64,000 nucleotides of DNA from an uncultured Sterolibacterium sp. GTDB taxonomy: Bacteria; Pseudomonadota; Gammaproteobacteria; Burkholderiales; Rhodocyclaceae. The notes under the pieces are model-generated. The model did not search any database. It saw only the letters and a list, made by a program, of their open reading frames with translations, and was not told the origin of the DNA. Below are positions 31,276 through 43,081 of this stretch, one piece after another. Positions within the stretch are counted from its first letter, which is position 1; each line of letters begins with the position of its first letter. The position numbers were made by a program, and so were the translations under genes. Location of the stretch: NCBI GenBank assembly GCA_903930535.1, contig CAIYYX010000170.1:1-64000 (forward strand), written 5' to 3'.

Positions 31276-32337
31276 TCAGAGCCCCTGAGCCAGCCTGCCG
31301 GGATTGAAAATGCCTGCCGGATCGAAGGCGTTCTTCAGCTTTCTATGGAGAGACATCAGTGTTGGCGGCAGAGCCTGGAAGACGCCGGCGCTTCTCGCCT
31401 CCTCGCTTCCCCGGAACAAGGCGGCATGACCGCCGGCAGAAACAGTCTCGGCGGCAAGCTTTGCCTCGCCGGACTTGACCCAGCGCAGGCTGCCGCCCCA
31501 TTCGATCAGCTGCGATCCTGGCAGGGGCGGGGTCACAGAAGGAAGGGAGAGTCGCCAGAGCGGCCAGAGCGTAGAACCCGTCTTGAAGAAGCCCGTGCGC
31601 TGCTCGCGCAACTCCTGCCAGAAGTTGGGTCCATCGGCCACGAGCTCGCCGCCGAGGTGTTCGCGCGCCGCCGCGACTGCGGCACGCGCGCCCGAGAGGC
31701 GCAGGGTCAAGAGATCATCCTGCCAAGAGGTGGCCGAGATCGGCAGCGGCTGGCCGGCCCAGCTGTTCATCCATTCCAGCGCATTCACTTGCGGCGTCTC
31801 CAGGCGCAGCGTGAGCTCTGCCGCAGGCCGCGGCAACACCTTGAGCGAGACTTCGAGGATCAGACCCAGCGTGCCCAGTGATCCAGCGATGAGGCGCGAG
31901 ACATCGTAGCCGGCGACGTTTTTCATCACTTGGCCGCCGAAATTGAGCACCTCCCCGCGACCGTCCATGAGCTTCACGCCGAGGACGAAATCGCGCACCG
32001 AGCCAGAGGTGGCGCGGCGCGGCCCGGACAGGCCGCTGGCGACTACGCCGCCAACCGTGGCGCCATCGCCGAAGTGCGGCGGCTCGAATGCCAGCATCTG
32101 CCCTTGGCCTGCAAGCAGTGTTTCCAGTTCGCGCAAAGGAGTTCCTGCGCGCGCGGTGACGACGAGTTCGGTCGGGTCGTAGCTGACAATGCCTGCGTAA
32201 GCTCTCGTGTCCAGAATTTCGCCGGCAAGAGGGCCGCCGTAAAAATCCTTGCTGCCGCCGCCTTTAAGGCGCAGCGGCCTTTTCTGCGCCGCCGCCTGGC
32301 GCACGCGTTCCGCGAAGCCTGCGATGACCGCGTTCAT
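31276..32337 (-). CDS. glcE: Glycolate oxidase, FAD-binding subunit
   Basis: The 353 aa product from ATG 32337 has a PCMH-type FAD domain at the N-terminus: PLRLKGGGSKDFYGG, DPTELVVTARAGTPL and GATVGGVVASGLSGPRRATSGSVRDFVLG. It lacks the C-terminal cap found in GlcD, as usual for GlcE. The ATG overlaps the glcD TGA as ATGA, so the two are coupled. The frame continues upstream inside glcD without meaning. With GlcD and GlcF it oxidises glycolate (or D-lactate) to the 2-oxo acid. Confidence 0.92.
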   Translation of the reverse strand: MNAVIAGFAERVRQAAAQKRPLRLKGGGSKDFYGGPLAGEILDTRAYAGIVSYDPTELVVTARAGTPLRELETLLAGQGQMLAFEPPHFGDGATVGGVVASGLSGPRRATSGSVRDFVLGVKLMDGRGEVLNFGGQVMKNVAGYDVSRLIAGSLGTLGLILEVSLKVLPRPAAELTLRLETPQVNALEWMNSWAGQPLPISATSWQDDLLTLRLSGARAAVAAAREHLGGELVADGPNFWQELREQRTGFFKTGSTLWPLWRLSLPSVTPPLPGSQLIEWGGSLRWVKSGEAKLAAETVSAGGHAALFRGSEEARSAGVFQALPPTLMSLHRKLKNAFDPAGIFNPGRLAQGL

Positions 32338-33776
32338 GTCTTCGTTCCTGGCGTACCGGTGAGCCGGTATTCCGAACAGCGGCGCGGTGTGGGCACGGCC
32401 TTGCCGGGATTGAGCAGCTTGCGGGGATCGAAGGCCGCCTTGACGGCGTGGAACAGAGCGAGTTCCGCGCTCGAAAACTGCACGCACATCTGATTCACCT
32501 TCTCGATGCCGACACCGTGCTCGCCGCTGATGGTGCCGCCCATCTCGACGGAGAGCTCGAGGATGCTGGCGCCGAAGGCGGTGGCGCGCTCGGTCTCGCC
32601 GGGCACATTGGCATCGAACATGATCAGCGGATGGAGATTGCCATCGCCGGCATGGAAAACATTGGCGCAGCGCAGACCATAGGTTTTCGAAAACTCACTG
32701 ATGCGCGTGAGCATCTCGGCGACACGGCGGCGAGGGATGGTACCGTCCATGCACAGATAATCCGGCGTGATGCGGCCCACCGCCGGGAAGGCCGCCTTCC
32801 TCCCCGCCCAGAAGCGCAGGCGCTCGGCCTCGTTTGCCGAGACGCGGATGTCGGTGGCGCCGGAAGCCTCAAGCAAGGAGCGCATGGCGGCGATTTCCTC
32901 GGCCACTTCTTCCGGCGTGCCGTCGGATTCCGCGAGCAGGATCGCCGCCGCCGAGAGATCGTAGCCGGCATGGACGAAATCCTCGACGGCAGCAGTGGCG
33001 GCCTTGTCCATCATCTCCAGGCCGGCGGGGATGATGCCGGCGGCAATGATGCTGGCCACGGCGTTGCCGGCGGCAACGACATCCGAGAACGAGGCCATCA
33101 CCACTTGCGCCAGTTGCGGCCGTGGCGTGAGTTTCACCGTGGCCTCGAGCACGATGCCCAGCATGCCCTCCGAACCTATCATCAGCGCGAGCAGATCATA
33201 GCCGGGGGCATCGAGCGCGGTGCCGCCGATCTCGACCACCTCGCCGTCCATCAGGGCGACCTTCAAACGCAAGACGTTATGCACTGTCAGGCCGTACTTC
33301 AGGCAATGCACGCCGCCCGAATTCTCGGCGACATTGCCGCCTATGGTGCAGGCGATCTGGCTCGATGGATCGGGGGCGTAATAGAGGCCATGGCGGGCCG
33401 CGGCCTCGGAGATGGCCAGATTCCGCACGCCCGGCTGTACCCGCGCGGTCCGTGCCACCGGGTCGATTTCCAGGATGCGCATGAACTTCGCCAGGGACAG
33501 CACCAGACCTTCGGCCACCGGCGTCGCGCCGCCCGAAAGACCCGTTCCGGCGCCGCGCGCCACCACGGGCAAATGCATCTCCTGGCAGAGTTTGAGGACG
33601 GCGACGACCTGATCCTCGGTCTCGGGCAGAGCGACCATGAGGGGCAGTTGTCTGTAGGCGGTCAGTCCGTCGCACTCGTAGGGACGCGTCTCCTCCTCGG
33701 AAACGAGCAGCCCCTGCTCCGGCAGGATGGCCCTCAGGGCAGAGATCGCTGCGGCGATATCGCTGGGCTTGTCCAT
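32334..33776 (-). CDS. glcD: Glycolate oxidase, FAD-linked catalytic subunit
   Basis: The 480 aa product from ATG 33776 carries the FAD-binding PCMH domain (PVVARGAGTGLSGGATP, DPSSQIACTIGGNVAENSGG, YDLLALMIGSEGMLG) and a C-terminal FAD-oxidase cap with HAGDGNLHPLI and GGTISGEHGVG. This is the substrate-oxidising subunit; glycolate is the likely donor because the operon also holds hydroxypyruvate isomerase and glycerate kinase. The frame is open 16 codons further upstream, overlapping the end of the kinase gene; MDKPSDIAAAI is the better N-terminus. Confidence 0.93.
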   Translation of the reverse strand: MDKPSDIAAAISALRAILPEQGLLVSEEETRPYECDGLTAYRQLPLMVALPETEDQVVAVLKLCQEMHLPVVARGAGTGLSGGATPVAEGLVLSLAKFMRILEIDPVARTARVQPGVRNLAISEAAARHGLYYAPDPSSQIACTIGGNVAENSGGVHCLKYGLTVHNVLRLKVALMDGEVVEIGGTALDAPGYDLLALMIGSEGMLGIVLEATVKLTPRPQLAQVVMASFSDVVAAGNAVASIIAAGIIPAGLEMMDKAATAAVEDFVHAGYDLSAAAILLAESDGTPEEVAEEIAAMRSLLEASGATDIRVSANEAERLRFWAGRKAAFPAVGRITPDYLCMDGTIPRRRVAEMLTRISEFSKTYGLRCANVFHAGDGNLHPLIMFDANVPGETERATAFGASILELSVEMGGTISGEHGVGIEKVNQMCVQFSSAELALFHAVKAAFDPRKLLNPGKAVPTPRRCSEYRLTGTPGTKT

Positions 33777-33780
33777 GCTC

Positions 33781-35061
33781 CTAGCCCCTGCGCTCGACCA
33801 GGATGGCGCGGAAATCATTGACATTGGTGCGGGTCGGTCCGGTGACGACGAGGTCGTTCAAGGCGGCGAAGAATCCGTAGGCGTTGTTGTCGGCAAGCAG
33901 CGCGCGCGCATCGAGGCCTTTGCTCCTGGCGCGCGCCAGGGTGTCCGGGGTAACGATGGCACCGGCATTGTCTTCAGAGCCGTCGATGCCGTCGGTGTCG
34001 CAGGCGAGGGAATGAATATGAGAGTCACCGCCCAGCGCCAGGGCCAACGCCAACTGGAACTCGGCATTGCGGCCGCCGCGGCCATGACCCTTCACCGTCA
34101 CCGTGGTCTCGCCGCCGGAGAGCAGGACGCAAGGTGCAGTCAGCGGGATGCCGTGCGCGGCACAAGAACTCGCGATGCCGGCGAGAACGCGCGCCGCCTC
34201 CCGCGCCTCGCCCTCGATGGCATCGCCCAGGACGAGAGGCGTGACGCCCGCCGCGCGTGCCACCTCGGCGGCGGCGGCGAGCGCCTGCTGCGCCGAGCCT
34301 ATCAGCCTGAACTCGCCAGGTGAAACAGCGTGCTTCGGAGACTCGAAGGCGCCGCTCTCCAATCCTTGGCGCACCGCGACAGGCAGCTCTATGGCATAAC
34401 GATCGAGGATTTCCAAAGCGTTGGCGCACGTGGTCGGATCAAGCAGGGTGGGGCCGGAAGCGATCACCGAGGCATCGTCATTGGGCACATCCGACAGCGC
34501 CAGGGTCACTATCCTGGCCGGCGCAGCCGCCGCCGCGAGGCGCCCGCCCTTGATGGCGGAGAGATGCTTCCTGACGCAGTTGATCTCGTGAATGCTGGCG
34601 CCGCAGGACAAAAGCTGACGATTGATTCCCTGCTTTTGGGCAAACGTGATGCCAGCAACCGGCGCCGCCAGAAGTGCGGAGCCTCCGCCCGAGAACAACG
34701 CCAGGACCAGATCATCTTTTGACAGGCCTTTCACCAGAGCGAGGGCACGCGCGGCTGCCTGCGCACCGGCCGCATCGGGAACCGGATGCGCGGCTTCGAT
34801 CACTTCAATCTTGCGGCAATCCAGGCCATGACCGTAGCGGGTGACCACGAAACCTTCGAGAGGACCGCTCCAGTGCTGCTCGACCGCCAGGGCCATCGCC
34901 GCCGCGGCCTTGCCTGCGCCCACGACGATGGTTCTTCCCCGCGGCGACGCGATGTCTTTCAGATGCGGCGGCAGGCAAAGCCCGGGGTCCACGGCCGCCA
35001 GCGCCGCAGAAAAAAGCCGCCGCAGGAATGCGCGCTGCTCCTGGTAGCCCGTCAGCGCCAT
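33781..35061 (-). CDS. Glycerate 2-kinase / MOFRL family (TtuD/GckA)
   Basis: The 426 aa protein has an N-terminal DUF4147 domain (IVVGAGKAAAAMALAVEQHW, LALFSGGGSALLAAP) and a C-terminal MOFRL domain (CVLLSGGETTVTVKGHGRGGRNAEFQLALAL, DTDGIDGSEDNAGAIV). This family phosphorylates D-glycerate to 2-phosphoglycerate and was earlier labelled hydroxypyruvate reductase TtuD. It sits between hyi (10-base overlap) and glcD (4-base gap), which places glycerate at the end of a glycolate/glyoxylate route into glycolysis. Confidence 0.9.
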   Translation of the reverse strand: MALTGYQEQRAFLRRLFSAALAAVDPGLCLPPHLKDIASPRGRTIVVGAGKAAAAMALAVEQHWSGPLEGFVVTRYGHGLDCRKIEVIEAAHPVPDAAGAQAAARALALVKGLSKDDLVLALFSGGGSALLAAPVAGITFAQKQGINRQLLSCGASIHEINCVRKHLSAIKGGRLAAAAAPARIVTLALSDVPNDDASVIASGPTLLDPTTCANALEILDRYAIELPVAVRQGLESGAFESPKHAVSPGEFRLIGSAQQALAAAAEVARAAGVTPLVLGDAIEGEAREAARVLAGIASSCAAHGIPLTAPCVLLSGGETTVTVKGHGRGGRNAEFQLALALALGGDSHIHSLACDTDGIDGSEDNAGAIVTPDTLARARSKGLDARALLADNNAYGFFAALNDLVVTGPTRTNVNDFRAILVERRG

Positions 35062-35828
35062 GGCTTGATCCAGTCGAGACCACTCGATGCCAAGGTCAGC
35101 GGCAGGTATTCGCAGCCGACCCAGCCCTCGTAGCCAATCGTATCGAGATGACGGAACAGGAAGGGGAAATTGATTTCCCCCGTGCCCGGCTCGTGGCGGC
35201 CTGGGTTGTCGGCCAGTTGGATGTGGCCGATGTTGGCGAGATTCTCTTGCAGGGTTCTCGCCAGGTCGCCCTCCATTACCTGGGCATGGTAGATGTCGTA
35301 TTGCAGGCGCAGGTTGTCGCTGTCGGCATCCTTGAGCAACGCCAGCGCAGCCTGGGTCGTGGCGACGAAGAAGCCGGGCACGTCGCGCGTATTGACGGCT
35401 TCCATGACCAGCTCGATGCCGGCGCGCTTCAAGGCGAAGGCGGCGAAACGCAGGTTCTCTATCAGCGTCTGGCGCGACCGCTCTTTGTTCTCGTCGCTGG
35501 GGGAAATGCCGGCCAGGCAGTTCATCCGCGTGCAGCCCATCGCCCCCGCATATTCTATGGCCAGGCCGACGCCGTCCTGAAACTCGCCGATGCGTGCGCT
35601 ATGGCAGGCGATGCCCCGCTCCCCTGCCGCCCAGTCGCCGGCAGGCAGATTGAACAGCACGACCTCCAGACCTTCTGCCCTTGCCTTCTCTGCCAATTCA
35701 AGCTTGTCATAGGCATAGGGGAACTGGAACTCGACCGCGGCAAAGCCGTCGGCGCGAGCCGCGGCAAAGCGGCCGAGGAAGTCGTGCTCGGCATAGAGGA
35801 GGGAGAGGTTGGCGGAAAAGCGAGGCAT
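35052..35828 (-). CDS. hyi: Hydroxypyruvate isomerase
   Basis: The 258 aa TIM-barrel protein of the xylose-isomerase-like family interconverts hydroxypyruvate and tartronate semialdehyde. Family marks are MPRFSANLSLLYAEHDFLGRF at the start, then LVMEAVNTRDVPGFFVAT, LRLQYDIYHAQVMEGDLA, HIQLADNPGRHEPGTGEINF and GYEGWVGCEY, with the metal-binding Glu, Asp, His and Glu. It is the first gene of the leftward operon. Glyoxylate carboligase and tartronate semialdehyde reductase, its usual partners, are absent from this window. Confidence 0.93.
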   Translation of the reverse strand: MPRFSANLSLLYAEHDFLGRFAAARADGFAAVEFQFPYAYDKLELAEKARAEGLEVVLFNLPAGDWAAGERGIACHSARIGEFQDGVGLAIEYAGAMGCTRMNCLAGISPSDENKERSRQTLIENLRFAAFALKRAGIELVMEAVNTRDVPGFFVATTQAALALLKDADSDNLRLQYDIYHAQVMEGDLARTLQENLANIGHIQLADNPGRHEPGTGEINFPFLFRHLDTIGYEGWVGCEYLPLTLASSGLDWIKPWR

Positions 35829-35881: not shown

Positions 35882-36931
35882 TCACAATGCCAGCGCATCC
35901 CCGGCTATCAGCGCCGCAATCTGTTTCTCCGCCGCGGCGCCTTGCTGGCGGTGGAGTTCCAGCAGGCGATAACCGACATCCTGCCAATGGTCGCGGCCCT
36001 TCTCCAGCGCCTCGGCGAGGGCGGCACTCTGACCGCCCTCGTGCCAGAGATCATAAGCACGGGTCAGGTCGGGGAAAAGCGCGCGCCTCATGCCGTCGAA
36101 ATTGGAAAACCAGAAATGGATTGACGGGCTTGCTTCCCGCCGCAAAAGCGTCGGCAGGGTGACCAGGCAGTCGGCGAGATTGTCGCGCACGGCGCGGGCC
36201 AGAACCTCGGCGCGCCTGCCGGAAAATCCTGACAGCATCTCCTCCCAACTCTTGCCAAGAATCAGTCCGGCAGCGTGTTCGCCCATTTCATGCAGGATCA
36301 GGGTCTCGCTCTCGCCCTCGGTCATACTTTCAATCGCCCGGGCGGAACCGGACTCGTAACCATAGGCATCGAGTACCGCCTTCAGCGCACCGTCGCGCGG
36401 CCTAACACCCCAGGCCTCGACCTTCTCCCACAGCCAGCGGGTCAATGACTCCCGACGCAGATAGACGGTGTCGTTAAGCAAGGCAGCCGGCGCCGCAGTA
36501 AGGTCTCGCGCGTACTCGCAGCCGCAGACGAGGATGCTCACCCCGCCTCTCTCCTCCTGCCGCAGCAATTCGCCGAGGAAGAAATTCGGCTTGTGGAATC
36601 GTCCCATGCCGGCGCCATAGACCAGACCGTGTTGCCGCAACTCGCTGTTGATGGCGGCATTGGCGAAGGGATCCATGAGTTCGTCTTTGAGCGGCAGGGG
36701 AGAAAACTCGCTCTCCTCGATATCGTTCCACAGGGCTTCGCGCTGCGCGATCCAGCGTCCCACCTCGGCCCGCGGCGCCGGCTCTGCGGCCGGCAATCCG
36801 TGCTCCCAGCGGTAGAACTCGCGCATCTCCAGGAGATAGCTGCAAAGCGTCATGTTGCGCGCATGGCGGGCGTCAGCGATATGACAATTCTGCTGCACCC
36901 TGCCGATGAGTTCATCAAGTCGCGGCAGCAT
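35882..36931 (-). CDS. Conserved-looking hypothetical protein with a His-Glu-rich HEMGEH motif
   Basis: The product is 349 aa, soluble and mostly helical, with no signal peptide. I do not recognise a characterised domain. Notable features are an early CSYLLEMREFYRWEHGLP block, then ILVCGCEYARD with two Cys, and LILHEMGEHAAGLI at about 211-223 (His214, Glu215, Glu218, His219). That arrangement recalls metal-binding or hydrolase helices, but it is not the strict HExxH. It is the last gene of a four-gene leftward operon (gaps 11, 8 and -1 bases) with a 73-aa protein, an S24-like protein and the HTH/ferredoxin/reductase fusion. Confidence 0.7.
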   Translation of the reverse strand: MLPRLDELIGRVQQNCHIADARHARNMTLCSYLLEMREFYRWEHGLPAAEPAPRAEVGRWIAQREALWNDIEESEFSPLPLKDELMDPFANAAINSELRQHGLVYGAGMGRFHKPNFFLGELLRQEERGGVSILVCGCEYARDLTAAPAALLNDTVYLRRESLTRWLWEKVEAWGVRPRDGALKAVLDAYGYESGSARAIESMTEGESETLILHEMGEHAAGLILGKSWEEMLSGFSGRRAEVLARAVRDNLADCLVTLPTLLRREASPSIHFWFSNFDGMRRALFPDLTRAYDLWHEGGQSAALAEALEKGRDHWQDVGYRLLELHRQQGAAAEKQIAALIAGDALAL

Positions 36932-36942
36932 GATTCGGGGTT

Positions 36943-37164
36943 TCAGTAATCGTCCCCGACCATGGGCTCGGGCTTGCGCACCTGCGACAGCAGGTCCTCG
37001 GCCTGCAACTCGTTTTCGGCGAATATCATCCTGATCGTGGCGCCGACAGCCAAGGTCTCACGCAATTCCTTGACCGTTTTCGAGGCCTCCTTGAACGAGG
37101 CATGCTGGGCCACTTTCTCCAGGTTCTTGAGCGGCGCATGGACCTTGTAAATGAAGTAAGGCAT
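36943..37164 (-). CDS. Small protein of unknown function in the redox-fusion operon
   Basis: The product is 73 aa: a first strand MPYFIYKVH, then a helix LKNLEKVAQHASFKEASKTVKELRETL, a strand TIRMIFAENELQAEDLL and an acidic end. The alternation suggests a compact alpha/beta fold; no motif identifies it. It has tight spacing to both neighbours (8 bases after the S24-like gene, 11 bases before the 349-aa gene). It starts MPYFIYKV like several small proteins linked to redox operons, but that resemblance is too weak to name it. Confidence 0.65.
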   Translation of the reverse strand: MPYFIYKVHAPLKNLEKVAQHASFKEASKTVKELRETLAVGATIRMIFAENELQAEDLLSQVRKPEPMVGDDY

Positions 37165-37172
37165 AGCTCCTC

Positions 37173-37535
37173 CTAGTCTACGTAATGCTTCAGTTCCCGC
37201 CTGCGGCCGGGCCGGGTCTTCTGGATGATCACGCCCTTGACCGCGGTCTTAAGCGCGGCGAGATCGGAGATGGCGATTTCAGGATAGGCTGCGTTGAGCG
37301 GGTGCAGCCGCCAGCTGTCCCCCTCGGCCAGCAGTTGCCGGAAAATCCATTCATCGTCGTGATAAGCGAGCACATAAGCGCCATCCTTCGCCAGGCCTTC
37401 CGGCTCGATGATGACGATATCGCCTTCGGCAAACTCGGGCAGCATGCTCTCGCCCAGAACCATCAGGGCGAAGGACTCGGCGCCGCTGCAGGCGGATTCG
37501 GCATGCTCTGCCGCGATGGGGATGATTGCGGCCAT
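37173..37535 (-). CDS. HTH-less S24 (LexA/UmuD-like) peptidase-fold protein with Lys-to-Arg change
   Basis: The product is 120 aa and consists of the S24 domain only. The serine loop is LGESMLPEFAEGDIVIIEP (Ser30), which is the S24 signature. In LexA and UmuD the catalytic base is a Lys in a segment such as EFTVKKL; the matching segment here is EWIFRQL, with Arg66 in that place. Autocleavage is therefore doubtful and the fold may serve as a sensor or a docking platform. No DNA-binding domain is present in this chain, but the gene just upstream (1-base overlap at 37535) encodes an HTH on the fusion protein, so the two products together supply both parts. Confidence 0.78.
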   Translation of the reverse strand: MAAIIPIAAEHAESACSGAESFALMVLGESMLPEFAEGDIVIIEPEGLAKDGAYVLAYHDDEWIFRQLLAEGDSWRLHPLNAAYPEIAISDLAALKTAVKGVIIQKTRPGRRRELKHYVD

Positions 37536-39022
37536 CAGAGAACCGTCGAATAAATCCGCGGCGCGGCAAGGCCGGCCGCCGTGAGTTCGGCTGCTGCTGC
37601 GGCGACGAAGGCTTGCGGCCCCGAGAGGTAGACGTCATGGCCGGCGAGATCGGCGAGGTCACGGCGCAGGGTCTGTGCCACCTCCCGCCCGCCCGTCGCA
37701 GCATCTTGGGCGTCAAGCGCGACATAGTTGAAATCATCGAGAGCCTCGCTCCAGGCGCGGCACTGGTTGGCCAGATAATGTCCGTCGGCGCGGGTCGCCG
37801 TCCAGTAGAGCGAAAGCGACTCGGCGGCGGCCACGGCGAGGGCGTGTTCGATCAGGCTGTTTGCCGGCGCGAAGCCCGTGTCGCAGGCGACGAAAACAAT
37901 GGGGCGGCTGGAACCCCGGCTAAGCGTGAATTCTCCCCAGGGCCCCCACACCGTGACCGCATCACCGGTTTTCAGCGCGCCGGCAAATAGACTGTCGGCG
38001 AATGCATCGACGCCCGGAGACTCGGGACGGGCGACATGGAAATAGAGGTTGCGGTCATCGCAGGGGCAACTCGCCACCGCATAGGTGGCGGAGCAGTCCA
38101 GACCATCGCCGGCCAGACCCAGGGTGACGCTCTGCCCGGCGAGAAAGCGCAGGCGGTTGCCGCGCGGGGTCTGCACATGCAGCAGCAGCGTATCAGCACT
38201 GCCCATCGTGGCAAGCTTCCTGACCTTTGCGACGATGCGCTGCTCGGGAATGTCGGCGGGGCCGGCAGCCTCGAGCGCTTCCAGGACGACATCGCTGACC
38301 GCGGTGTGGGCGCAAAGCAGCACATAGCCCTGCAATCGCTCCGCCTCGGACAGGACATAGTCGCAGTGCTGCACGCGGCGCACTTCGCCTGTCACCACCC
38401 GCGCCTTGCACAGGCCGCAGTTGCCGTTGCCGCAGCCGTAGTTGAGGCCGAGGCCGGCGCCCAGGCCGGCCTGAAGCAGCGTATCGTGGCCCTGGACCAG
38501 GAATTCCCGGCCGCTGGGACGGACCGTCACATGTGCGGACATAATTCTCAGCATATCATCCATGAGCCCTATGGTATCGGCCGGCTCGATTGACCCCAGC
38601 ACGGCCGCCAAGCCGCTTTCCAGCATTTTCCCGACCTCTGTCAATTCTATGGAAGGGCTTTTCGCGGAAAGTTTCTCGATGCGTTCCATGAGCGAGAGCA
38701 CCAGACCGTGATAGCCCTGGAGATGGCGGCGCAGGTCTCCCAGTTCCTGGCTTTGCGCGAACAGGCGCTGGGCGAGAACCTCGGAACTGGGCAGCATGTA
38801 TTCGCGCGCGCGACGGCCGAAAGACTCCTCCTTGATCCTGGCGACGCGCTCGAAAGCCCCGCTGTCCTCGAGATCGAAATCCGGATAGGCAGAAAGGAGA
38901 TCCGCGGAGTCGACCATGCCGTCGTGAGAAGGCAGTTCTCCCTCGCGTATCCTCTTTTGCAGCGCGCCGCGGCTGACACCGACCAGGTGCGCCGCGCGCG
39001 ACAGAGTAAGGCGTTGGCCCAT
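37535..39022 (-). CDS. Fusion of an HTH domain, a plant-type 2Fe-2S ferredoxin and an FAD/NAD(P)H reductase
   Basis: The product is 495 aa. Residues 1-50 look like an excisionase/MerR-type HTH (LTLSRAAHLVGVSRGALQKRIREGELP). Residues 55-160 form helices with coiled-coil tendency. Residues about 163-250 are a 2Fe-2S domain with Cys197, Cys202, Cys205 and Cys237 (YGCGNGNCGLC, LLCAH). Residues about 260-495 are a ferredoxin-NADP reductase-like module (FLAGQSVTLGL, FVACDTGFAPANSL, VYLSGPQAFV). Such reductases normally support oxygenases; an N-terminal DNA-binding domain is unusual and suggests a redox-responsive regulator. It is the first gene of the four-gene operon and diverges from a SulP gene. 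Confidence 0.85.
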   Translation of the reverse strand: MGQRLTLSRAAHLVGVSRGALQKRIREGELPSHDGMVDSADLLSAYPDFDLEDSGAFERVARIKEESFGRRAREYMLPSSEVLAQRLFAQSQELGDLRRHLQGYHGLVLSLMERIEKLSAKSPSIELTEVGKMLESGLAAVLGSIEPADTIGLMDDMLRIMSAHVTVRPSGREFLVQGHDTLLQAGLGAGLGLNYGCGNGNCGLCKARVVTGEVRRVQHCDYVLSEAERLQGYVLLCAHTAVSDVVLEALEAAGPADIPEQRIVAKVRKLATMGSADTLLLHVQTPRGNRLRFLAGQSVTLGLAGDGLDCSATYAVASCPCDDRNLYFHVARPESPGVDAFADSLFAGALKTGDAVTVWGPWGEFTLSRGSSRPIVFVACDTGFAPANSLIEHALAVAAAESLSLYWTATRADGHYLANQCRAWSEALDDFNYVALDAQDAATGGREVAQTLRRDLADLAGHDVYLSGPQAFVAAAAAELTAAGLAAPRIYSTVL

Positions 39023-39105
39023 GAGTTTAAAAACCAGATTGTGACTGCCGACAGTATTCCATTTAATCGCCGCGCTGATAAGCCCGGCTCATGGCCTCAT
39101 CGACA

Positions 39106-39124
39106 ACCCTGTATGCTTCAGGGT
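39106..39124. promoter_or_regulatory. Inverted repeat between the HTH-redox gene and the SulP gene
   Basis: ACCCTG (39106-39111) and CAGGGT (39119-39124) are perfect 6-bp arms around TATGCTT, 27 bases before the SulP ATG and 84 bases before the start of the fusion gene. It is a possible operator for the HTH of the fusion protein. Purely positional evidence. Confidence 0.35.
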
Positions 39125-39150
39125 CATCCCTTTGTTAAGATTCCTGCCTC

Positions 39151-40932
39151 ATGAGCACGAACACCACCTTGCTGCGCCTTTTCCCATTCCTGCGTTGGTG
39201 GCCGCAGATGAATCGCGCGAGCTTCAAGGCGGACGTCACGGCCGGCCTGATAGGCGCCATCATCGTGCTGCCGCAGGGCGTCGCCTTCGCCACCCTGGCC
39301 GGCATGCCCCCGGAGTACGGACTTTACGCCGCCATGGTGCCGGCTGTCGTGGGGGCGCTCTGGGGCTCCTCCTTCCATCTCGTCTCGGGGCCGACCAACG
39401 CCATTTCCCTGGTGGTGTTCGCCACCATGAGCACCATCGCCGAACCGGGCAGCGCAGACTATGTGCGCCTGGTCCTGACCCTGACTTTCATGGTCGGGAT
39501 GATGCAGTTGGCGATGGGCCTGGCGCGCATGGGCACGCTGGTGAATTTCATTTCGCATACCGTGGTGATCGGCTTCACCGCCGGCGCGGCGATGCTCATC
39601 GTGGCCAGCCAGGTGAAGAATTTCTTCGGCATCGATGTTCCTCAGGGAACGATGTTTTTCCGCATCTTCGACACCTTGTTTTCCCATGCCGGGCAGATCA
39701 ATCCTTATGTCGTCGGCGTCGGCATGGCGACGCTGATCACCGGCGTGATCGTGAGAACGTGGTTGCCGAAAATCCCCTACATGATTGCCGCCATGGCGGC
39801 CGGGAGCGCGGCTGCCTACGCGCTGAACCAGTGGCTGGGCGCCGAGGCCACCGGGATCAAGACCCTGGGCGCCCTGCCCGCCGCCTTCCCGCCATTCTCG
39901 GCGCCGCAGTTCTCCCTGGCCACCATGCGCGAATTGATCGGCGCCGCCTTCGCCGTCACCGTCCTGGGCCTGACCGAGGCCGTGTCGATCTCCCGCTCCG
40001 TTGCCACCCGGTCCGGCCAGCGCATCGACGGCAATCAGGAGTTCATCGGCCAGGGCCTGTCCAATCTTGTCGGCGCCTTTTTCTCCGCCTATCCTTCCTC
40101 AGGCTCATTCAACCGCTCGGGCCTCAATTTTGAGGCCGGCGCCAAGACGCCGCTGGCTGCCGTGCTGTCGGCCGGTTTCCTGTTTGCCGTGATTCTGGTG
40201 GTGGCGCCGCTCGCCGCCTATCTGCCGATCGCCTCGATGGCGGCAATCCTTTTCCTGGTCGCCTGGGGATTGATAGACTTCCACCATATCGCCGCCATTG
40301 CCCGCGCCAGCCGCTCCGAAGCCATCGTGCTGGGCACGACCTTCCTTGCAACCCTGGTGATGCATCTGGAGTTCGCCATTCTGGTGGGCATCGTCATGTC
40401 GTTGATGCTTTATCTCAACCGCACCTCGCGCCCGACCATCCGTTCGCTCCTGCCCGATGCCGACGATCCGCAGCGCAAGATGACTGAGCGCCAGCCAGGC
40501 CAGGCCGAGTGTCCGCAACTGAAGATCATCCGCATCGAGGGTTCGATCTACTTCGGCGCCGTCAATCACATCGGCGAATATCTGCACGAAATCGCCGAGC
40601 GCCGGCCCGGGCAGAAACGGCTGCTGCTCAGGGGCAAGAGGATCAACTTCGTGGATGTCGCCGGCGCCGAACTGCTCGCCCATGAAGCCGAACGGCGGCG
40701 CAAGATGGGCGGCGGCCTGTACTTCTTCAGCCTCTCCGAGGCCCCCTTGAAGATGCTGGGCAAGGCCGCGTTCTCCGACCGCCTGGGCGCCATCGTCAAC
40801 TTCCCCAGCACCACGCAGGCCATCTCGGCCCTGGTGCCCGGACTCGATCCCGACATCTGCGCCACTTGCACGGTGCGCATTTTCCGTGAATGCGCGGACC
40901 TTCCCGCTCCGGGAGTCAGTCGAAACGCTTGA
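39151..40932 (+). CDS. SulP-family inorganic anion transporter with STAS domain
   Basis: The 593 aa protein has about 10-12 membrane segments: FKADVTAGLIGAIIVLPQGVAFATLAGMPPEYGLYAA, the SulP signature, then ISRSVATRSGQRIDGNQEFIGQGLSNLVGAFFSAYPSSGSFNRS. The cytoplasmic STAS domain at about 450-560 includes LKIIRIEGSIYFGAVNHI and RINFVDVAGAELLAHEA. Likely ions are sulfate, bicarbonate or dicarboxylates; they cannot be distinguished here. An unusual C-terminal tail, DPDICATCTVRIFREC, holds three cysteines. The last 17 bases overlap the end of the convergent second SulP gene. Confidence 0.9.
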   Translation: MSTNTTLLRLFPFLRWWPQMNRASFKADVTAGLIGAIIVLPQGVAFATLAGMPPEYGLYAAMVPAVVGALWGSSFHLVSGPTNAISLVVFATMSTIAEPGSADYVRLVLTLTFMVGMMQLAMGLARMGTLVNFISHTVVIGFTAGAAMLIVASQVKNFFGIDVPQGTMFFRIFDTLFSHAGQINPYVVGVGMATLITGVIVRTWLPKIPYMIAAMAAGSAAAYALNQWLGAEATGIKTLGALPAAFPPFSAPQFSLATMRELIGAAFAVTVLGLTEAVSISRSVATRSGQRIDGNQEFIGQGLSNLVGAFFSAYPSSGSFNRSGLNFEAGAKTPLAAVLSAGFLFAVILVVAPLAAYLPIASMAAILFLVAWGLIDFHHIAAIARASRSEAIVLGTTFLATLVMHLEFAILVGIVMSLMLYLNRTSRPTIRSLLPDADDPQRKMTERQPGQAECPQLKIIRIEGSIYFGAVNHIGEYLHEIAERRPGQKRLLLRGKRINFVDVAGAELLAHEAERRRKMGGGLYFFSLSEAPLKMLGKAAFSDRLGAIVNFPSTTQAISALVPGLDPDICATCTVRIFRECADLPAPGVSRNA

Positions 40933-43081
40933 GCGACAAGGGTCGCAAGGGGCTGGCGGCTTCATCCTGGCCGCTTGCCGCGGCGGCGGCATGGATCGCA
41001 CTGAGTGCCCGGTTGGCCGTCGCGTAGAGATTCTGCTCGCCGATACGGCTGGCCAGGCCGGTCGCGCGCAGCACATCCACCACCTGTTTTTTCAGGCCGG
41101 AAAAGGCGACGGTGAGGCCATTGTCGCGCAGCCGCTCTACCAGGTGGCCGATGACCTCCTCGCCGGAAGCATCGAGTTCGTTGATGCCCTCGCCAACCAC
41201 CAGGAGGAAGTTCGCCTTGGGATTGGCGGCCACCGCTTCGAGGATGGCATCCTCGAAATAGGACACGTTGGCGAAATAGAGGCGGCCGTCGAAGCGCACC
41301 GCGGTGACGATGTCGGAGGCGGGCAGGTGATGAATTTTCGCATCGCGCAGTGTGCCATCGGGGTGCCGTCCGAGCACGGCCACGCGCGGCGTCATGGTGC
41401 GCGCAAGATAGAGCACGATGGCCAGGCTCGCCCCGACCAGTATGCCGGTGTCGAGATGCGGCGCCACGGCCAGGGTCACGACGAAGGTGACGATGGCGGC
41501 GATGCCGTCGTGACGGCTTGCCTGCCAGGCGTGTTTGATGGCGGCGAAGTTGATCAGGCCGATGACCGCCATGATGATGACCGCCGCCAGCACGGTTTGC
41601 GGCAGATGATAAAGGAGGGGCGTCAGCCAGAGCAGCGTGAGCAGGACGATGAGGCCGGTAAACAGCGAAGACATGCCGGTCACCGCGCCGGCATTCAAGT
41701 TGACCGCAGAGCGGGAAAAGGAGCCTGAGACCGGATAGGACTGGCTCACGGCGCCGATCAGATTGGCCAGGCCCTGACCCACCAGTTCCTGGTTGGGATC
41801 GATTCTCTGCCGGGTCTTGGCGGCCATCGCCTTGGCGATCGAGATCGCCTCCATGAAACCGACCAGCGCGATCACCAAGGCCGCCGAGAACAGGCTGGCC
41901 AGCATCTCCAGCGACCAGTTCGGCATGCCGACAGCCGGCAGACCTTCAGGAACCCTACCCACCACCTCGCCGCCGCCGCTCAACCTGAGTTCGCCCGAGC
42001 CCGCACGGATGATGTGCCAGCGCTGGCCGTCGCTCTTCTCGCCCGGTGCGACCCTGCCCGCGGCATAGAGGCCGACTGTCTTGCCATTGCCGTCCTGGAC
42101 GCGTTCAAAGACGAAGCTGCGCAGGGCGCGATTGCGCCGGCGGTTTTCGGCCTCCCTGTCCTTCAACTGCAGCCTGAGCAGCTGCAGTTCATAATTGAGG
42201 GTCACGGCCTCGTGGGAAAGCTCGCCTCTATCCCTCTGCAACTTATTCAATTCCCCGGCCTTGTCGCCGATCTGCTGGTTGATTTCCTTGATGCGCTCCT
42301 CGATGCGCACGAACTCAGTCAGCATCGCAGCGGCCTCTGCTTCCTTGATGGTACTGATGTCGGCCGTCGCCGTGCGCTCGAAACCGATCTGCCAGGAGAC
42401 GAGGGAGGTCAGGGCAACGGCGATCAGGACACCGGGCAGCTTGGGCGCCATCCTGCGCACCAGCCACATCACCGTCATTGCCGCCAGACCCATCCACAGC
42501 GTCGGCCAATGGGTGTCACCCAACTGCTGGACGACGCCCCAGATATCCTGAAGAAAATACTCCGAGCGGCCGATAGGAACGCCGATCAGCTTGTTGATCT
42601 GAGACAGACCGATGATGATCGCGGCGGCGTTGGTGAAGCCGACGATCACCGGATGCGAGAGGAAATTGACGATGACGCCGAGTTTGAATAAGCCCAGGGT
42701 TAACTGCACCACACCGACCATCAGCGTCAGGCCGATCGCCAGCGCCACATAGGCTTCCGATCCCGGTGCGGCCAGCGGCGCCAGACTCGAGGCCGTGAGC
42801 AGGGAAACCACGGCCACCGGCCCGGTACCGAGTTGGTTCGACGAGCCCCATAGGGCGCCGACCATCACCGGCAGAAAGGCGGCGTAGAGACCGAAATACA
42901 CCGGCATCCCCGCCAACTGCGCATAGGCCATGGACTGCGGCACGAGCACCAGTGCCACGGTCAGGCCGGCCAGGAAGTCGGCGCGCAGGGCCGTGGCGGA
43001 ATAAGGCAGCCAGCGCAGGAAAGGCAGGAGGCGGAGCAGGAGCGGAGGGACGTTCATGTGATGTTGCGGCTGCATGGGCAA
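40916..43081 (-). CDS. SulP-family transporter with a large coiled-coil insertion
   Basis: The product is 721 aa, about 130 residues longer than its neighbour. The N-terminal membrane part (LRADFLAGLTVALVLVPQSMAYAQLAGMPVYFGLYAAFLP) and the later part (IDPNQELVGQGLANLIGAVSQSYPVSGSFSRSAVN) are standard SulP. The STAS domain at about 575-690 includes AVRFDGRLYFANVSYFED. Between them, at about 245-380, lies an insert: a heptad-rich helix (FVRIEERIKEINQQIGDKAG, then LNYELQLLRLQLKDREAENRR) followed by a beta-like segment (RWHIIRAGSGELRLSGGGEVVGRV). The insert sits in a loop between membrane segments. ATG 43057 is an alternative start. Confidence 0.88.
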   Translation of the reverse strand: MPMQPQHHMNVPPLLLRLLPFLRWLPYSATALRADFLAGLTVALVLVPQSMAYAQLAGMPVYFGLYAAFLPVMVGALWGSSNQLGTGPVAVVSLLTASSLAPLAAPGSEAYVALAIGLTLMVGVVQLTLGLFKLGVIVNFLSHPVIVGFTNAAAIIIGLSQINKLIGVPIGRSEYFLQDIWGVVQQLGDTHWPTLWMGLAAMTVMWLVRRMAPKLPGVLIAVALTSLVSWQIGFERTATADISTIKEAEAAAMLTEFVRIEERIKEINQQIGDKAGELNKLQRDRGELSHEAVTLNYELQLLRLQLKDREAENRRRNRALRSFVFERVQDGNGKTVGLYAAGRVAPGEKSDGQRWHIIRAGSGELRLSGGGEVVGRVPEGLPAVGMPNWSLEMLASLFSAALVIALVGFMEAISIAKAMAAKTRQRIDPNQELVGQGLANLIGAVSQSYPVSGSFSRSAVNLNAGAVTGMSSLFTGLIVLLTLLWLTPLLYHLPQTVLAAVIIMAVIGLINFAAIKHAWQASRHDGIAAIVTFVVTLAVAPHLDTGILVGASLAIVLYLARTMTPRVAVLGRHPDGTLRDAKIHHLPASDIVTAVRFDGRLYFANVSYFEDAILEAVAANPKANFLLVVGEGINELDASGEEVIGHLVERLRDNGLTVAFSGLKKQVVDVLRATGLASRIGEQNLYATANRALSAIHAAAAASGQDEAASPLRPLSLKRFD

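Follow-up and report, generated by a model that had tools for sequence, protein, structure and literature searches.

A conserved gene block of the reverse-Dsr sulfur-oxidation pathway that includes a helix-turn-helix–ferredoxin–reductase fusion

What purpose is served by a protein that joins a helix-turn-helix (HTH) domain of the DNA-binding type to a 2Fe-2S ferredoxin and an FAD/NAD(P)H reductase in a single chain, and do the three genes that follow it belong to the same system? This question is raised by a four-gene locus in a stretch of 64,000 nt (the window) on contig C170 of the draft genome G000 of an uncultured Sterolibacterium sp. The original prediction, made from the letters of the window, described the fusion, an S24 protein and two further proteins as a self-contained redox-responsive control system. 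Here we report that the four genes almost certainly make up the larger part of an accessory module in reverse-Dsr (rDsr) sulfur oxidation, because the families to which they belong co-occur with dsrA and are syntenic with the dsr gene cluster. The module is real and conserved, and is newly placed in this pathway. Reverse-Dsr is one of the main biological routes of sulfur oxidation, and the regulation of its genes is poorly known.

Association with the reverse-Dsr pathway

Three genome samples were searched, with dsrA called by TIGR02064: 150 genomes of the same order as the window (the order sample), of which 29 carry dsrA and 121 do not; 321 genomes of its class (the class sample); and 30 genomes of the class picked for the presence of dsrA, DUF6866 (the family of the fourth gene product) or the fusion. 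In addition, a species-level scan with one genome per species gave at least 563 confirmed relatives of the fusion, and the best 80 loci were analysed; these are biased towards relatives of the window and include many metagenome-assembled genomes. Throughout, a fifth gene that relatives carry between the 73-residue and DUF6866 genes is called X.

In the order sample, every genome carrying a member of one of the five families also carries dsrA (fusion 22/22; S24, counted at E < 1e-30, 25/25; 73-residue protein 25/25; X 24/24; DUF6866 21/21), and none of the five occurs in any of the 121 dsrA-negative genomes. The corresponding hypergeometric p-values range from 1e-19 to 1e-24, without correction for kinship, which inflates them; the carriers span at least ten families. 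Two dsrA-negative genomes from families that include carriers (G111, in the window's own family, and G010) also lack the genes, all five in the case of G111. In the class sample, 65 of the 73 genomes with DUF6866 and 26 of the 31 with the HTH-bearing fusion have dsrA, and the exceptions include incomplete drafts. Where DUF6866 and dsrA are present on one contig, which is the case in 31 genomes of the class, they are always less than 30 kb apart. The 30 chosen genomes contain S24 in 29 cases, often on the dsr contig, and X in 24.

The surroundings of the fusion gene point in the same direction. Of the 49 loci with at least 5.5 kb of upstream sequence, 35 contain dsrAB. A TauD-like gene directly precedes the fusion in 48 of 69 loci. 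The conserved neighbours in the best 80 loci are, on one strand, dsrA/B, dsrE, dsrF, dsrH, dsrC, dsrM, dsrK and dsrL, while the divergent side, read away from dsr, holds a small gene, a Cas6-like gene, a second DsrC gene, sometimes TusA, a gene for a 200-residue protein, the TauD-like dioxygenase gene and the fusion block, which is followed by genes for a YedE-type sulfur transporter, DsrE2 and TusA. Pfam supports the assignments of DsrC, Cas6, TauD, the sulfur transporter, DsrE2, TusA, the DsrK-like iron-sulfur protein and the DsrM-like membrane protein; the neighbours that we take to be DsrE, DsrF, DsrH and DsrL were labelled from our own reading of the sequences. In loci of the class outside the order, DUF6866 is encoded upstream of dsrAB, adjoining the 200-residue gene, with Cas6-like, DsrC and mostly TauD-like genes in between.

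The block itself is also a conserved unit. Re-deriving the four minus-strand open reading frames reproduced the coordinates (Table 1) and the spacing of the original prediction, namely a 1-base overlap followed by gaps of 8 and 11 bases, and the same neighbourhood, which it had proposed to look for elsewhere, recurs: the order fusion-S24-73-residue-(X)-DUF6866 is kept in Betaproteobacteria in dozens of the genomes behind the best 80 loci, which is more than chance. The S24 gene begins within 300 bases after the fusion in 59 of the 78 loci with enough sequence. The 55 loci with 6.5 kb downstream encode S24 in 49 cases, the 73-residue protein in 47, X in 40 and DUF6866 in 30, all on the same strand, and 28 of them contain all four in the order S24, 73-residue, X, DUF6866. 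The genes are nevertheless separable. In the order sample, G020 has S24-73-residue-X-DUF6866 together and the fusion about 6 kb upstream, G067 retains only 73-residue-X-DUF6866 together, and the fusion adjoins DUF6866 in G103; where block genes sit apart, they still co-occur with dsrA. Thus, the unit belongs to the rDsr gene set, normally includes a fifth gene and can be split, so that "self-contained" is not an apt description of it.

The dsr cluster of the window genome is interrupted by the assembly, dsrA being cut at the ends of two contigs (C61 and C107). These carry dsrAB-EFH-C-M-K-L and, divergently, the small gene, the Cas6-like gene, two TusA and two DsrC genes, the 200-residue gene and the TauD-like gene; other open reading frames stand at the position near dsr where relatives have the fusion.

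Table 1. Positions in the window of the block and the genes flanking it
Feature	Position	Strand
HTH-long helix-2Fe-2S ferredoxin-FAD/NAD(P)H reductase fusion, 495 residues	37535..39022	-
S24 (LexA/UmuD/CI-fold) protein without HTH, Ser30, Arg66 at the catalytic Lys position, 120 residues	37173..37535	-
73-residue protein, function unassigned, no family match; adjoins S24 and X in relatives	36943..37164	-
11-base gap where relatives carry gene X	36932..36942	
DUF6866 / Sfum_1244 family protein, 349 residues, confident predicted fold without PDB match	35882..36931	-
Intergenic region between the fusion and a divergent SulP gene; presumed promoter region	39023..39150	
First SulP sulfate-permease gene	39151-40932	+
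Second SulP sulfate-permease gene	40916-43081	-
Hydroxypyruvate isomerase, DUF4147/MOFRL and FAD-linked glycolate-oxidase-like genes	32334-35828	-

The fusion protein and its partners

The fusion of HTH, ferredoxin and reductase is a real family: the full-length chain with its HTH is found in 22 of the 150 genomes of the order and in all of the best 80 loci, which are mostly from Betaproteobacteria (Sterolibacterium, Sulfurisoma, Sulfuritalea, Rubrivivax, Hydrogenophaga, Rhodoferax, Curvibacter, Piscinibacter and Azohydromonas). Matches to Fer2 (E 4.9e-13) and NAD_binding_1 (6.7e-8) are above the Pfam cut-offs, and those to FAD_binding_6 and HTH_17 fall below them in the single sequence (20.4 bits for HTH_17, against a cut-off of 27). 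HTH_17 matches 30 of 35 homologous N-termini at E values of up to 0.1, the best being 4e-6, and Cys197, Cys202, Cys205 and Cys237, the plant-type 2Fe-2S ligands, are invariant in 22 homologues. An AlphaFold model built with 22 sequences (pLDDT 84, pTM 0.66) has an N-terminal strand (4-6), two helices (7-14 and 18-26), a strand (36-38) and a further helix (39-45), long helices between residues 56 and 159 and, after these, the ferredoxin and reductase folds. The FAD and HTH domains read from the 495-residue chain thus stand out better across the homologues than in the one sequence. The recognition helix of the HTH is basic.

The best PDB fold matches of the model are GcoB, carbazole dioxygenase reductase, T4moF and benzoate dioxygenase reductase. 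With reductases of the BenC, MmoC and GcoB type (PDB 5ogx, 1krh, 4wqm) the fusion shares the ferredoxin-FAD-NAD order, the 2Fe-2S ligands and the overall fold, but it adds the N-terminal winged HTH and the long helices, mostly lacks the RxYS-type flavin motif, directly after which an invariant Cys-Pro-Cys stands, and mostly has Ala or Ser for the Cys of the C-terminal CGP motif; the BenC-type model NF040810 scores 117.6 bits, under its cut-off of 430. Redox regulators of the SoxR/MerR family likewise consist of a winged HTH, a long helix and a 2Fe-2S centre, a layout that the model of the fusion resembles. Unlike them, the fusion has a ferredoxin-type cluster and its own NAD(P)H reductase in the same chain, and its HTH is nearer to the HTH_17/excisionase models than to those of MerR.

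All members of the clade have the two cysteines of the Cys-Pro-Cys motif, Cys319 and Cys321, whereas two paralogues in the same genome lack them. In a tree whose root and some of whose supports are moderate only, the reductases with the ASCPC motif form one group (100/100) apart from these paralogues, which have RxFS and no such cysteines. The HTH-bearing forms are one group within it, in which two HTH-less members from genomes that also hold an HTH copy are nested, and a second HTH-less group falls outside. The HTH was therefore probably added once and later lost in places, a single origin that we read from the tree. HTH-less members in the closest score range are dsr-linked in 38 of 41 genomes of the class sample, and some of them adjoin dsrA or X; because these members are dsr-linked as well, the reductase core is the part more widely tied to dsr. 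Seven dsr-positive genomes (G458, G374, G204, G272, G394, G456 and G384) have the Cys-Pro-Cys reductase in two versions, one with the HTH and one without, which hints at a split of roles.

The 120-residue S24 protein matches PF00717 at 9.7e-19, and a search with a profile built from 18 homologues retrieves lambda CI, LexA and UmuD', with which it shares the fold and the position of the Ser. In the profile match, Ser30 aligns with the catalytic Ser and Arg66 with Lys192 of lambda CI (the K192A chain has Ala in that column), which confirms the replacement of Lys by Arg that the original prediction had proposed to check by alignment. Unlike LexA, UmuD and CI, the protein has no HTH, the Ser is not universal, being present in 54 of 65 homologues and replaced by Asp or Glu in the other 11, and Arg66 is invariant (65/65). 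Since Arg holds the Lys position throughout and Ser30 is replaced in 11 relatives, a classical Ser/Lys peptidase is unlikely. The loss of the Lys and, in some relatives, of the Ser makes sensing or scaffolding likelier than cutting, in support of the earlier suggestion that this fold may sense rather than cut. Homologues of the S24 gene, which a longer open reading frame on the opposite strand can mask, were located by tblastn.

The two remaining proteins had been described as unknown, which holds for the 73-residue protein, without a relative in Pfam, NCBIfam or the PDB; the 349-residue protein belongs to a named, uncharacterised family, DUF6866 / Sfum_1244 (NF045620, 447 bits against a cut-off of 150; PF21739 and PF21740 also match). 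The libraries searched attach neither function nor pathway to this family, which is here tied to dsr. Its predicted model is confident (pLDDT 93.9, pTM 0.91) and a PDB fold search with it returned nothing usable (best E 0.17, TM < 0.2), so that DUF6866 probably has a new fold. His214, Glu215 and Glu218, which form an HExGE motif, and Cys16 and Cys30 are invariant and might form a metal-binding or redox site. A profile match to CutA (E 2e-4) covers only residues 26-96, which are all-helical with a short hairpin in the model, unlike the CutA fold, and was taken as chance. Identity with the known DsrS, suggested by size and dsr linkage, was set aside on gene position alone, DUF6866 being encoded upstream of dsrA in gammaproteobacteria and not at the end of the cluster.

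The product of X, of about 147 residues, is Cys-rich with invariant C18, C31, C47 and C56, and has no Pfam, NCBIfam or PDB relative. The gene was not found in the window genome, where those of the 73-residue protein and DUF6866 are 11 bases apart; a few other loci among the best 80 also lack it. In other genomes, some matches to DUF6866 or X have a stop codon within the matching region (G020:C1:1887745-1888779, G078:C94:22322-22759 and G033:C64:3634-4071).

Possible functions of the module

From its domains, the fusion is best read as a flavo-iron-sulfur protein coupled to NAD(P)H, which probably links DNA to the redox state. It would pass electrons from NAD(P)H via FAD to its own 2Fe-2S cluster, and the winged HTH of excisionase/MerR type, together with the long and probably dimerising helix, would signal to DNA how reduced the NAD(P)H pool is, with dsr-linked genes as the probable targets. 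The pool in question would be the one filled by rDsrAB-DsrL: rDsrAB is known to have DsrL as its NAD(P)H partner (PMC7596348), so that the pathway feeds this pool, and an NAD(P)H-reading regulator is plausible. The block is found in the same genomes and the same neighbourhood as the rDsr gene set, but none of its products is among the named Dsr proteins, and DsrL, which is also present, is a different NAD(P)H flavoprotein. In Allochromatium vinosum, DsrC has been reported to bind DNA upstream of the dsr cluster (Grimm et al. 2010, cited in PMC5944118). The S24 protein may have evolved from a LexA/UmuD-like fold into an adaptor that does not cleave, and the 73-residue protein, X and DUF6866, in the weakest part of the proposal, might be partners or maturation factors.

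We give this mechanism as a whole a probability of roughly 0.4. Besides the co-occurrence and synteny with dsr, the retention of the HTH in all of the best 80 loci, its probable single origin and the layout of winged HTH, long helices and redox domains in the model argue for it. Several observations count against it: the block of the window genome lies on a different contig from dsrAB, an operator common to the upstream regions of fusion and dsrA in that genome did not rise above shuffled sequence, the wing of the HTH (DGMV) is not basic, the domain-to-domain confidence of the model is moderate, and some dsr-positive genomes have relatives in which this reductase core stands without an HTH, so that the core can do without the domain. 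On the homologues lacking an HTH that the original prediction had named as its test, the outcome is accordingly mixed, the domain being kept in all of the best 80 loci and absent from other dsr-linked relatives. Inverted repeats ahead of the fusion gene show no conservation, and a simple search gave no conserved operator. With no shared operator found, the redox-responsive control proposed earlier is not borne out. Its boldest form, a one-chain transcription regulator with its own reductase and 2Fe-2S cluster that controls rDsr through the NAD(P)H made by the pathway, with a dead LexA-type protein, X and the new-fold DUF6866 in the same switch, seems to us rather unlikely.

Nearly as likely as the regulator is an electron-transfer enzyme of rDsr. 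It might be an NAD(P)H-linked reductase whose substrate is a Dsr sulfur carrier or X; the HTH would then serve for docking, and the invariant Cys-Pro-Cys by the flavin motif would be a second site of redox or persulfide chemistry. This tentative alternative accommodates the dsr linkage of the HTH-less Cys-Pro-Cys members, their occasional position beside dsrA or X, and the invariance of the two cysteines in the clade together with their absence from the two paralogues; it fits less well with an HTH that has a basic recognition helix in all of the best 80 loci, and with the genomes that hold both kinds of copy, which suggest different jobs. Improbable, in our view, is a maturation or repair module in which S24, the 73-residue protein, X and DUF6866, sometimes with a MoxR-like ATPase and a DUF2201/VWA protein, make or repair a Dsr cofactor, the electrons coming from the fusion. 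The Cys-rich X and the ATPase and DUF2201 genes found between fusion and S24 in several relatives suit it, but most loci lack those two genes and the HTH is left without explanation. Far less probable still is an S24 protein that is an active self-cleaving or processing peptidase using Arg as the base: the fold is kept and Ser30 is present in most members, but a Ser that gives way to Asp or Glu in 11 of 65, and the lack of an HTH to release, speak against it. Just as hard to credit is the self-contained control system of the original prediction, responsive to redox state and independent of any particular pathway, since the confinement of all five families to dsrA-carrying genomes in the order sample strongly contradicts it, even if the conserved gene order and the retained HTH would be expected of it.

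Whichever function applies, the close tracking of dsrA by these five uncharacterised families makes them direct candidates for components that the rDsr pathway still lacks. In one of them, a single chain combines a domain of the DNA-binding type with NAD(P)H-redox domains, and another has an apparently new fold. Five unstudied genes thereby gain a pathway assignment that gene deletion in cultivated sulfur oxidisers can test, and the families may serve as genomic markers of the oxidative Dsr pathway. In a literature search that left most subscription journals outside its coverage, so that an earlier mention is possible, we found no paper naming DUF6866 / Sfum_1244, none joining peptidase S24 with dsrA and none fitting the HTH-reductase fusion in sulfur oxidation.

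Neighbouring genes

A defence system was rejected for want of PADLOC support, the single weak match being to the HTH stretch (E 0.002), and a phage origin was rejected as well, the only profile matches being the expected ones to CI/UmuD and ferredoxin. Plasmid carriage was not found, and Rfam and tRNA scans of the window gave no match.

Further dsr-linked unknowns lie between dsrA and the fusion (L144:7307-10001 and equivalents; L232:6331-10410 in the window's own genome): the small gene by dsrA, the Cas6-family gene (PF09559), the second DsrC gene, the gene for the 200-residue protein, which has no Pfam match, and the TauD-like dioxygenase gene. Most of them are found outside the order too. 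In some Rhodocyclales-like loci (L096:11476-12456, L094:4052-5185, L099 and L115), the stretch between fusion and S24 holds genes for a MoxR-like AAA ATPase and for a DUF2201 metallopeptidase/VWA protein, a pair reminiscent of MoxR-VWA cofactor chaperones.

After DUF6866, the window encodes a hydroxypyruvate isomerase, a DUF4147/MOFRL protein and a FAD-linked glycolate-oxidase-like protein, an arrangement partly found in relatives. On the other side, two SulP genes stand beside the fusion, possibly for sulfate export; the first is divergent from the fusion, and relatives of it are also found near the fusion in L095, L134 and L156.

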